A stretch of 64,000 nucleotides of DNA from Candidatus Bathycorpusculum sp. (GTDB taxonomy: Archaea; Thermoproteota; Bathyarchaeia; Bathyarchaeales; Bathycorpusculaceae). Positions 21,044-38,982 of the stretch are shown here, one piece after another (the stretch's first letter is position 1; each line of letters begins with the position of its first letter). The translations under genes and the position numbers were made by a program. The stretch is taken from assembly GCA_009778385.1 (NCBI GenBank), contig WRJX01000102.1, positions 1-64,000 of the forward strand, read 5' to 3'. The notes beneath the pieces were generated by a model. It was given only the letters and a program-made list of their open reading frames with translations. It was not told the DNA's origin and ran no database searches.

Positions 21044-21185
21044 GGGGTAGTAGTATAGCCAGGTATTACGATGGGCTCCAGAAGCAAACCAGAATGGGTA
21101 TGCTGACTTCCTTTGGGAAGAGTGACGAAGTTCTGGAGCTGTAGATACCCATTGGTCGTCGGTTCAAATCCGATCTGCCCCACCA
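21044..21185 (+). tRNA. trnW: tRNA-Trp(CCA) with 65-nt intron (21082-21146) after position 37; CCA end encoded
   Basis: Acceptor GGGGTAG/CTGCCCC, T-arm GTCGGTTCAAATCCGAT, anticodon stem ATGGG/CCCAT with loop CTCCAG^A; bulge-helix-bulge AG^A / AT^A at the splice sites. Confidence 0.92.
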
Positions 21186-21350: not shown

Positions 21351-21617
21351 ATGCATGTTCACAAGAGAAGAAAAGAAGTATCAGACCGTTTAGCCAGAAT
21401 CGAAGGCCATGTCCATGGCGTCAAAAACATGGTTGAAACAGACAAAACCTGCCCAGAAATACTTCTACAAATAGTAGCCATACGAGCAGCACTAAACAAA
21501 GTATCAAAAATAGTCCTTGAAGACCACGTTGAATCCTGCCTAAAAGAAGCCGCTACATCAGGTGAAACAGAACAACATTTTGAAGAACTCAAAGAGGCAT
21601 TATCAAAACTCATTTAA
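21351..21617 (+). CDS. CsoR/RcnR-family metal-responsive repressor
   Basis: RLARIEGHVHGVKNMVETDKTCPEILLQIVAIRAALNKVSKIVLEDHVESCL; Cys-His-Cys ligands. Confidence 0.92.
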   Translation: MHVHKRRKEVSDRLARIEGHVHGVKNMVETDKTCPEILLQIVAIRAALNKVSKIVLEDHVESCLKEAATSGETEQHFEELKEALSKLI

Positions 21618-21637
21618 GGCAAAACTGGAGAAAAAAC

Positions 21638-23470
21638 ATGACTCCAAAGCAGTCGATTCTTCTTATTTTTACAGTTTTAGGTTTAACAGGATGGTTAGCA
21701 GCCACATTTGAGCTATTACCACCAACAATAACGTTTTACCTTCAAATTTCTTCAGCAACCATGGCATTATTAACCATAGGATATGGCGCAATTAAAACGC
21801 TCCGAGAACGCGTTTTCAGCATGGACTTGTTAGCAACAATAGCAATAATAGCATCAATAATTAGTGGTGAATATTTTCCTGCAACCATTGTTGCACTTAT
21901 GCTGTTAGGCGGAGAGATGCTTGAAGACTATGCACAACAAAAAAGCACAGACGCCATACAAAAACTCATCGAAGAGCAACCTCAAACAGCCACAGTACTT
22001 AGAGACGGACAAGAAAAACAAGTTATTCCACAAGAAGTCAAAATTGGAGAAACAGTCATAATTAGACCCGGAGCAAAAATTCCGGTAGACGGAATCATCC
22101 AAAAAGGACACGCATACATAAACCAAGCCTCAGTAACAGGCGAGTCAATACCTGCAGAAAAAACAGAAGGCACAAACGTTTACAGCGGAACCATAGTTCA
22201 ACAAGGAGCTATATATGTAATTGCAACAGCAGTTGGTGAAAAAAGTACATATGGCAAAATAATAGCGTTAGTAAAAGAAGCTGAAGAAAAAAAGGCGCCC
22301 ATAGAGCGGACAGCTGACAAATACGCAAAATACTTTACACCAACAATCCTCATAATTGGAATAATAATTTTTGCATTAACACAAGACATAATGCGTATGG
22401 CGGCAGTATTTGTTATAGCTTGCCCATGTGCATTGATTCTTTCTACACCAGCAGCCATTGTAGCAAGCATTGGAAACGCGGCAAAAAAAGGAATCCTCAT
22501 ACGAAATGGAGAAACCTTGGAAAAAATATCAAAAGTTAACGTCATAGTTTTAGATAAAACAGGAACAATCACCAAAGGCAAACTAGAAGTTATAGACATA
22601 AAAAGTTTCAGCCAATACACATCTGACCAAATTTTACAATTTGCCGCTGAAACAGAAAAATGCTCTGAGCACCCCTTTGCAAAAGCCATAATAGAAAAAG
22701 CCCTCAAAAAAGGCTTTGACATTTCACACCCTGACAACTTTGAACATCACCCAGGTTTAGGAGTATGCATAAACAGCAATGGAACAAACATAGTTACTGG
22801 CAATACACGCTTAATGCAGAAATACGCCATTCAAATAACCCCCGAAGCTCAAGATTACATAACCAAACAGGACAAATACACAGTTATCCTTGTTGCAAAA
22901 CAACAAACATTACTTGGTGCAATAAGTCTATCAGATCAACCTCGAGAAAACGTAAAAAACATATTAACACAAGTTAAAGAAAACGGCATAAAACAGGTCA
23001 TAATGTTAACAGGCGATAATAGAAACGTTTCCGAAACAGTTGCAGTCGCATGCGAAATCGATGAAGCAATACCTGAATTGATGCCTGCTGATAAAGTAAA
23101 CAAAATTAAAAGCCTAAAAAATCACGGGTTAACAGTTGCCATGATTGGTGATGGAATCAATGATGCTCCAGCACTTGCACAAGCAGATGTTGGAGTTGCC
23201 ATGGGGTTATCTGGAACAGAAGTAGCCATTGAAACAGCAGGCATCGTGCTAGCATCAGATGATTTGTCAAAGTTACCACAGATGTTAAAGATTGGAAAAA
23301 CAACAATGTCCATAATTAAACAAAACATCACCTTTGCCATAGCAGTAAACATCATCGGCATAGCGTTATCCAGCCAAGGGTTAATCTCACCTTTGGTAGC
23401 AGCCATAATTCATGAAAGTAACGCATTAATTGTCATGGTTAACTCACTTAGGCTTCTAAAAGTAAAATAA
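21638..23470 (+). CDS. P1B-type heavy-metal-translocating ATPase
   Basis: TGESIPAEK, CPCALILSTPAAIVASIGNAAKKGILIRNGETLEKI, DKTGTITKG, GDGINDAPALAQADVGVAMG. Confidence 0.95.
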   Translation: MTPKQSILLIFTVLGLTGWLAATFELLPPTITFYLQISSATMALLTIGYGAIKTLRERVFSMDLLATIAIIASIISGEYFPATIVALMLLGGEMLEDYAQQKSTDAIQKLIEEQPQTATVLRDGQEKQVIPQEVKIGETVIIRPGAKIPVDGIIQKGHAYINQASVTGESIPAEKTEGTNVYSGTIVQQGAIYVIATAVGEKSTYGKIIALVKEAEEKKAPIERTADKYAKYFTPTILIIGIIIFALTQDIMRMAAVFVIACPCALILSTPAAIVASIGNAAKKGILIRNGETLEKISKVNVIVLDKTGTITKGKLEVIDIKSFSQYTSDQILQFAAETEKCSEHPFAKAIIEKALKKGFDISHPDNFEHHPGLGVCINSNGTNIVTGNTRLMQKYAIQITPEAQDYITKQDKYTVILVAKQQTLLGAISLSDQPRENVKNILTQVKENGIKQVIMLTGDNRNVSETVAVACEIDEAIPELMPADKVNKIKSLKNHGLTVAMIGDGINDAPALAQADVGVAMGLSGTEVAIETAGIVLASDDLSKLPQMLKIGKTTMSIIKQNITFAIAVNIIGIALSSQGLISPLVAAIIHESNALIVMVNSLRLLKVK

Positions 23471-36890: not shown

Positions 36891-37613
36891 TTAGCGTTGG
36901 GCTACAATCATTGCATGTGCTTTATCGTAAGGTTCGAGGTCGACTACTTCTTTAACGTTAAAACCTCTGTTACGTAAAATGTTAGCCTCTTGTCTGTAAA
37001 CTGCCTCAGGCATCATAGTAACGTCAATACTTTGGGATTTGCATGCAAGCATAACCCAGCCTGATGGTTTTAGTAATACGTCTGCATTATCGGCTAAAAG
37101 TTTCGCCTGTTCAGGTTGTGCAACATCACAGTAGATAACATCAACTTTTCCTGGAATAAACACCGCATATCTTTCAGGTTTACGCGCATCCTCAAGAAAA
37201 GGTGACATGTTAGGTCTAAAAGCAGCCACATTATTAACAAGATCCCGCAATGAACGGGAAGCAAATTCTACACAGTAAACATGCCCAGCTTCTCCAATAA
37301 TATCTGAGATATGGCTCGGGGTTGTTCCAGAAGCTGCACCTAAATAAAGAACCTGAGAACCAGGCTCAATTGGCACGTTTTGCAGACCTTTAATTATACC
37401 CCCCGCAAGCTTGCTACGAAAAGCATCCCAAATACGATACTCCACATTTTTAACGTGAATTAAACGTTCACCATAAACGGTTAACCCCGGAGTTAAGTTA
37501 CGTGTAGCGAGGCGTTGAACGCCCCCCTCCAACATAGCCTGATAAATCTCTTTAAACTTAGGGTGTGACCGAACTTTAATATGCACGTTACTCGGTTCTC
37601 CGCTTCTCACCAT
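36891..37613 (-). CDS. flpA: Fibrillarin-like rRNA/tRNA 2'-O-methyltransferase
   Basis: TRNLTPGLTVYGERLIHVKNVEYRIWDAFRSKLAGGI, VLYLGAASGTTPSHISDIIG, VDVIYCDVAQPEQAKLL; start set at MVRSGEPSN. Confidence 0.95.
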   Translation of the reverse strand: MVRSGEPSNVHIKVRSHPKFKEIYQAMLEGGVQRLATRNLTPGLTVYGERLIHVKNVEYRIWDAFRSKLAGGIIKGLQNVPIEPGSQVLYLGAASGTTPSHISDIIGEAGHVYCVEFASRSLRDLVNNVAAFRPNMSPFLEDARKPERYAVFIPGKVDVIYCDVAQPEQAKLLADNADVLLKPSGWVMLACKSQSIDVTMMPEAVYRQEANILRNRGFNVKEVVDLEPYDKAHAMIVAQR

Positions 37614-38982
37614 GGTCACGGTATTTACCGCCGCTACCATGGAACCTATCGCCACCACGACTTCTGTCGTTACCTCGGTTACGGTCTCTACCTCTATCAA
37701 AACCTCGGCTACCTCTACCATCTCTACGTTGATCCCTTCTACCGCCATCACCAAAGCGATCACGCCGGTCACGGTTAAAGCGTTGATCACGGTCTCTGCG
37801 TTCTTCCCTTGGTTTGGGTTCTTTGGGTGGTGGAGCATCTTTGTATTTTTCGTGAATCTCTTCGAGGCGTTTGTTGACTTCGTCTTTTAGTCTGTCTCCG
37901 ATAAAGTTTCCGCCAAATGCGTCTGCTCTTGCTGCTATGGAGAGTTTACCGGCAATGACGCGAGCAATTTTTCCTCTTTGCCATCGTTTTGCGTCATGTA
38001 AAAGCGTATGTTGGAAAATTAAACCATGTTTGGGTGGTCTTGCGCCTGTTTTTAGCGATCGGAAGAGCGCTTTTTCTGCACCTAAAACTTGAATGGTGCT
38101 AGCTGGGCGCATAGCTAAGTTTTGTAGGCTGCCCGCCATGGCGATTAGCCTTGCGCCTAATAGTGCGCCAGCTACTGCTCGAACATTTGGTGCAAGTTCT
38201 TCCATGGTACGGTCAACATAGTTCTCCATGTTTTTGCGTAACTCATAGAGATTAAGTACATCGCGGCTAAGACTTTGAATTTGTTGCAAATCCGTTTCTG
38301 ATATGTCAGCACCCATTGAAGTTTGGGCTGTTTTTGCTACAAGTTCAGAGCGCTCTTTTGGAAGACCTTCAGCCACTACTGTCTCAAATGTATAATTTTC
38401 CCTGTCGCCCAAGTTTAAAACTAATCGGGAATATGTCTCGTGTTTTTCTATCAGGCGATCCATCTCTGGGAAGTAAACGCCATACCATTCGCGTAGCCTG
38501 CTCATAAACAGGTTTACGGTTCGGTCTAAATCATCAAGGGTTTGTATTGCTTGTGCAACAATTAAGTCACGTTTTTCAGATGCGCCTTTAATTCGTAGTT
38601 TAGCTAATTCCATGCTAACATTGCGGTTCCAAAGGGCAAGGTCTTGATCGTCTTTTGCAAAGCCTGAGTTTAAAGCTACTTGGTTCATTTTGCTACGGAG
38701 CACTTCAGCTTCTGCAGGGGATGCAACTCCTGTTTTTGTGCTGGTTTTTCTTTGAATTTCATCTGCAAGATTGGCGTTTTCAAATACGAATATTTCATAG
38801 CCAACGTTTCTAAGTAGGGACACTAATGAAAAGACTTCGTCAGAGAGTTTGCCTGACTCAGTCTTAAGTAAGCTTTTTGCTGCTGCCTGAGGCTTTTTAG
38901 GAAACAGAACTTTCTCTACTAAGTTGTTCTTTTCGTCAAAAGCGGCAACGCCGAATGGGTAGTGAATTATGAATGCTTTCAT
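37588..38982 (-). CDS. nop5: NOP5/NOP56-like C/D RNP core protein with RG/RD-rich C-terminal tail
   Basis: Nop domain LGARLIAMAGSLQNLAMRPASTIQVLGAEKALFRSLKTGARPPKHGLIFQH; tail RRDRFGDGGRRDQRRDGRGSRGFDRGRDRNRGNDRSRGGD. Confidence 0.95.
   Translation of the reverse strand: MKAFIIHYPFGVAAFDEKNNLVEKVLFPKKPQAAAKSLLKTESGKLSDEVFSLVSLLRNVGYEIFVFENANLADEIQRKTSTKTGVASPAEAEVLRSKMNQVALNSGFAKDDQDLALWNRNVSMELAKLRIKGASEKRDLIVAQAIQTLDDLDRTVNLFMSRLREWYGVYFPEMDRLIEKHETYSRLVLNLGDRENYTFETVVAEGLPKERSELVAKTAQTSMGADISETDLQQIQSLSRDVLNLYELRKNMENYVDRTMEELAPNVRAVAGALLGARLIAMAGSLQNLAMRPASTIQVLGAEKALFRSLKTGARPPKHGLIFQHTLLHDAKRWQRGKIARVIAGKLSIAARADAFGGNFIGDRLKDEVNKRLEEIHEKYKDAPPPKEPKPREERRDRDQRFNRDRRDRFGDGGRRDQRRDGRGSRGFDRGRDRNRGNDRSRGGDRFHGSGGKYRDHGEKRRTE

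Follow-up and report, generated by a model that had tools for sequence, protein, structure and literature searches.

The guide within the intron of archaeal tRNA-Trp is usually presented as a euryarchaeal dual-guide RNA. Archaeal C/D RNPs reportedly need both of their motifs, a requirement that is ascribed to Tran et al. in 2003 (listed in PMC3608112). The tRNA-Trp introns have a median length of 65 nt and nest a box C/D RNA (PMC4090602). In Haloferax, the intron guides the methylation of C34 and U39 (PMC7994747; PMC11408192), and the modifications Cm34 and Um39 are documented in Haloferax and Pyrococcus (PMC7994747, PMC6313347). In P. furiosus, the methylation of C39 was predicted yet undetected (PMC7668247). 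According to PMC8413462, both motifs are required for archaeal C/D RNPs, and an inner kink-turn closed by a stem is one of the two known forms of the C'/D' motif.

The window, which is the whole stretch of 64,000 nucleotides analyzed here, belongs to a Bathyarchaeota genome and contains a tRNA-Trp(CCA) gene with encoded CCA at 21044..21185 of the plus strand, where the intron features described below are also located. The gene was detected with Rfam RF00005 (48.9 bits, 21044-21182) and the cloverleaf was read by script; ARAGORN in bacterial mode missed this intron-containing gene in the window. By direct reading, the 5' exon corresponds to 21044-21081, and the intron of 65 nt (21082-21146) is located between positions 37 and 38 of the tRNA. 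The target side comprises A38 (21147), C39 (21148) and the 3' half of the anticodon stem (21147..21152). Adjoining the tRNA gene, at 21351-23470, a metal-sensitive repressor (Pfam PF02583) is encoded, followed by an ORF resembling a heavy-metal P-type ATPase.

The intron contains box D' CTGA (21103..21106), a 5-bp stem CTTCC-TTTG-GGAAG (21107..21120) and box C' GTGACGA (21122..21128), and these elements and the intron length agree with the reading given in an earlier note on this DNA. The 9-nt stretch AATGGGTAT (21093..21101) is the full complement of ATACCCATT (21145-21153), which spans the 3' splice site, and G21098, the fifth nucleotide before D', is opposite C39. After box C', TTCTGGAG (21131..21138) is complementary to CTCCAGAA (21076-21083) of the anticodon loop. 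Both complementarities had been proposed in the earlier note and were confirmed. The window intron is probably orthologous to the box C/D guides in archaeal tRNA-Trp introns, in a reduced version with a single kink-turn.

Homologous introns were collected by three routes. The first was BLAST with the whole gene against 61 related genomes, and in the second 128 genomes of the class were searched for the pattern GGGCTCCAG...TTCTGGAG with no constraint on boxes. The third was a pattern that also demands RTGA five nucleotides before TTCTGGAG, applied to genome contigs, for which the matches listed were used; this route favours introns with C' and the anticodon complement but is neutral towards D', box C, box D and the C39 guide. 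The extraction, which demanded RTGA closely followed by an anticodon complement of the GGAG type, gave at least 157 unique introns with splice sites, and the statistics were calculated for the 143 introns among the matches listed that lie outside the euryarchaeal set. Among the matches listed, the third route reached Bathyarchaeota, Methanomethylicota, Nezhaarchaeota, one Thaumarchaeota genome and the Asgard groups Borrarchaeum, Odinarchaeia, Hermodarchaeota, Baldrarchaeota and Njordarchaeum; it also gave a few bacterial chance matches. In the class outside the order, genuine-looking introns were found in 2 of 25 genomes (G194 and G249) by a search that did not proceed via the tRNA-Trp exons.

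Several other arrangements of the gene were observed in the survey. In many Bathyarchaeota loci, among them L014, L042, L065 and L082, the tRNA-Trp gene has an extra insert of ~40 nt, which follows the 3' half of the anticodon stem and precedes the T arm. It is apparently a second intron and is absent from the window gene. The Bathyarchaeota relative fen_992 (L047, G012:C22:7000-8150; L035, G012:C22:9700-10000) has a complete tRNA-Trp gene without the guide. About 700 nt from this gene lies the 3' portion of a window-type tRNA-Trp, a fragment that begins with the C' box; a third tRNA-Trp copy is without its 5' end. The arrangement looks like the integration of an element into tRNA-Trp with a crossover within the intron.

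The stem between D' and C', together with the A-G-U bulge, is judged from the sequence to be a textbook kink-turn. Among the 143 introns of the matches listed, 85% of the stem cells are paired, compared with 65% in shuffles (maximum 69%), and the third stem pair occurs as CG, AT, GC, TA and GT. With the stem starting immediately behind D' and ending one nucleotide ahead of C', which is the register expected for a kink-turn, at least 3 pairs are formed in 115 of these listed introns; in the neighbouring registers, the same holds for only 23 and 6 of them. Box C' has zero or one mismatch to RTGATGA in 123/143 homologs among the matches listed, and box D' is CTGA or CGGA in 112/157 of the listed homologous introns.

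The D' guide follows the C39 register closely. When the window intron was shuffled 200,000 times, CTGA with 9/9 guide pairs in the C39 register occurred at a rate of 5e-6. Among the matches listed, 109 of the 143 introns have the C39 guide; the fraction of paired guide-target cells is 0.87 against a shuffle maximum of 0.81, and guide positions 2-9 form Watson-Crick pairs in 67 to 81% of the introns. No comparable pairing was found in slid registers of these listed introns, so that strong pairing is limited to the C39 register. The run lengths are bimodal, with 8 or 9 consecutive pairs in 94 of the listed introns and next to none in about 40. All eight guide positions are paired in 43 of the 51 introns obtained by BLAST and by the pattern without box constraint.

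An ordinary bulge-helix-bulge (BHB) intron with chance matches was considered, in which TTCTGGAG would serve as the intron strand of the BHB, and the complement before D' would be a copy of the anticodon stem. Any stretch like the 5' half of the stem pairs with the 3' half, and at least 3 of the 4 pairs of the BHB central helix are retained in 140/143 introns among the matches listed. However, the intron strand of the BHB is a separate GGAG-like stretch adjoining the 3' splice site, and thus TTCTGGAG is not the BHB strand. In the window, this strand is GTAG (21141..21144, one mismatch), giving a relaxed form of the 4-bp central helix that is flanked by two 3-nt bulges in a BHB, with 3/4 pairs. 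The guide, moreover, also matches intronic nucleotides. Variation in the last two nucleotides of the intron is accompanied by variation in the guide, as TTT/AAA, TAT/ATA, TCT/AGA, TGT/ACA and TGA/TCA in different phyla; among the matches listed, the guide/target variants are GGGTTT/AAACCC (86), GGGTAT/ATACCC (7), GGGTCT/AGACCC (4), GGGTGT/ACACCC and GGGTGA/TCACCC. Some relatives of the same genus have ATGGG as their 5' stem, CCCGT as their 3' exon and ACGGG as their guide. Since this guide matches the exon and not the 5' stem, it tracks its target and is no copy of the stem. Guide-target pairs changed on both sides do not exceed the shuffles (5 against a mean of 3.8 in the listed introns), and these covariation counts come from related sequences and hence are not independent. 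The covariation and the rate of 5e-6 already contradict the chance reading, which we regard as very improbable.

In the comparison of the introns over archaea, 34 of the 143 introns among the matches listed, mostly from Methanomethylicota and Asgard groups, have lost the C39 guide while keeping the D'/C' kink-turn and the anticodon complement. Thus, C39 is not the sole function, and its methylation alone cannot explain the retention of the intron. These 34 introns would also suit a relic or splicing aid, in which the kink-turn binds L7Ae for the folding or the splicing timing of the pre-tRNA and methylation is no longer guided. The loss of the box C/D half points in the same direction, as does the predicted minimum-energy fold, in which TTCTGGAG pairs with the anticodon loop and the BHB is not formed. 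On the other hand, in most homologs among the matches listed the C39 guide tracks its target both in the stem and at intron positions -1 and -2, exactly in the register of five nucleotides before D', and splicing alone does not demand such tracking. We therefore consider a relic or splicing aid to be quite unlikely. As the two pairings of the anticodon loop are mutually exclusive, the modification would take place before splicing, or would be performed by the excised intron in trans. The excised intron of Haloferax tRNA-Trp acts in trans (PMC11408192).

The position of C34 can be counted only from C', since the intron has no box D. TTCTGGAG sets C34 opposite the eighth nucleotide after C'. The complement of this type starts 9 nt from the start of C' in 51/51 introns found by BLAST or by the pattern without box constraint, and with this fixed distance C34 sits where a 12-nt spacer would require it. 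In the window intron, box C is absent 12 nt before D', where GCAAACC is found, and box D for C34 is absent at 21141-21144, which is occupied by GTAG. The earlier note, which had seen no clear box C and no good box D for C34, was right on both sites. The degenerate C/D half that it described holds for 143/143 homologs among the matches listed.

A fully working dual guide would make both Cm34 and Cm39 by means of a cryptic terminal C/D element, or of one formed across the ligated ends of a circular intron. Its attraction is that even introns without the C39 guide retain TTCTGGAG at 9 nt from C', that C34 sits at a spacer position identical to that of full guides, and that circular tRNA-Trp introns occur in all archaea reanalyzed, Sulfolobus included (PMC12558985). 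Against it, a box C with at most one mismatch was found upstream of D' in 0/143 introns among the matches listed, compared with about 6% in shuffles. CTGA at the box D position for C34 was likewise found in 0/143 of these listed introns, with NNGA in 35. Across the circular junction, box C is no more frequent in the listed introns than chance would give (14 observed, 15 expected). We consider a fully working dual guide to be unlikely. Boxes C and D at other distances or over the circular junction were also tried, and they are at or below chance. A trans-acting C/D sRNA for C34 was sought elsewhere in the genome; the single match of YTGGAGYYCTGA lies in a context without any box C, and it therefore gives no candidate.

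The reduced single-kink-turn guide, which we prefer, would need the proteins of a C/D RNP. As the earlier note had recognized, fibrillarin and Nop5 are encoded in the window. Both ORFs are on the minus strand. The fibrillarin ORF (36891..37838; Pfam PF01269, E 3.5e-91; domain from residue 89) is the candidate methyltransferase, and the Nop5 ORF (37588..38982; PF01798, E 2.8e-72, and PF21572) is the candidate scaffold protein. L7Ae is encoded in the genome. We infer that the window intron forms an RNP and directs methylation in the following way. The D'/C' kink-turn in the pre-tRNA, or in the excised intron in trans, would bind L7Ae, followed by Nop5 and fibrillarin. Upstream of D', the 9-nt guide would pair over the 3' splice site and direct the 2'-O-methylation of C39 before splicing. 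Pairing of TTCTGGAG with the anticodon loop may open the anticodon arm and hold C34 in the methylation register. With the terminal C/D motif lost, L7Ae binding would rely on the stem-closed inner kink-turn. Archaeal C/D RNPs reportedly need both motifs (PMC8413462), and therefore a single kink-turn may be weakly active. The undetected C39 methylation of P. furiosus and the 34 introns without the C39 guide also count against this reading. Cm39 is likely to be present in the organism of the window, and the prediction of Cm34 is uncertain.

A broader proposal is that Bathyarchaeota, Methanomethylicota and Asgard groups use natural half C/D guides. A single stem-closed D'/C' kink-turn would then suffice for 2'-O-methylation, and the two target pairings of the pre-tRNA would replace the terminal C/D motif. 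We put this forward only tentatively, as a possible though not the expected outcome. The present analysis adds the observation that a broad archaeal set among the matches listed lacks the C/D half, with the D'/C' kink-turn having become a stem-closed one. The literature covered, to which the founding papers do not belong, contained no description of such a conserved loss. The consistent loss provides a natural test of whether archaeal C/D RNPs depend, as the rule has it, on two motifs in symmetrical assembly, and also of which methylation, at 34 or at 39, retains the intron in the genome. The registers are equal in Bathyarchaeota, Methanomethylicota and Asgard groups, which suggests that the guide is very old in archaea.

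The homology to the euryarchaeal tRNA-Trp intron guide, which had been proposed from the window alone, is supported by the common register and by the covariation of guide with target and of the kink-turn. Compared with the pre-tRNA-Trp guides of Haloferax volcanii and Pyrococcus abyssi (sR50), the window intron has the same intron site and layout, a D' guide to position 39 over the 3' splice site, an anticodon-loop complement after C', and fibrillarin, Nop5 and L7Ae available. It differs from them in having neither box C nor box D and in its stem-closed D'/C', and its target is C39 in place of the U39 of Haloferax. Another form was found in euryarchaeal relatives of G061 (L186-L194). Their tRNA-Trp introns have GATGAAA near the 5' end, CTGA, GATGAAG and TTCTGGAG, but position 39 (U39, stem ATGGA) has no guide, and the distance to a TTGA box varies. 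It is another partly decayed form of the guide.

Close counterparts are also the Thermococcales-like introns (L250-L263). This lineage was inferred because the flanking gcvT gene encodes a protein with about 85% identity to PDB 1V5V, a Pyrococcus horikoshii protein. Like the window intron, they have a D' guide, GCGGGTTT, to C39 with CTGA, and C' and the anticodon complement in common registers. Unlike the window intron, they carry a box C (one mismatch) at 12 nt before D'. Their box D, CTGA or CCGA, follows a TTGGAG guide and lies at the C34 register, and their D' and C' are joined by a short loop. They are thus complete dual guides, with C, D' to C39, C', and D to C34. Therefore, this type of intron is old and already known, and C39 as a target has precedents; a review also lists 'Um39 (or Cm39)' for the tRNA-Trp intron guide (PMC6313347), and the suggestion that C39 in place of U39 is peculiar to the lineage of the window was not upheld. 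With the canonical archaeal C/D box sRNA, the window intron shares the D'/C' kink-turn, the fifth-nucleotide rule and the guide directly upstream of D'. It differs from this sRNA in that just one of the two motifs is recognizable, and it resembles a half-mer.
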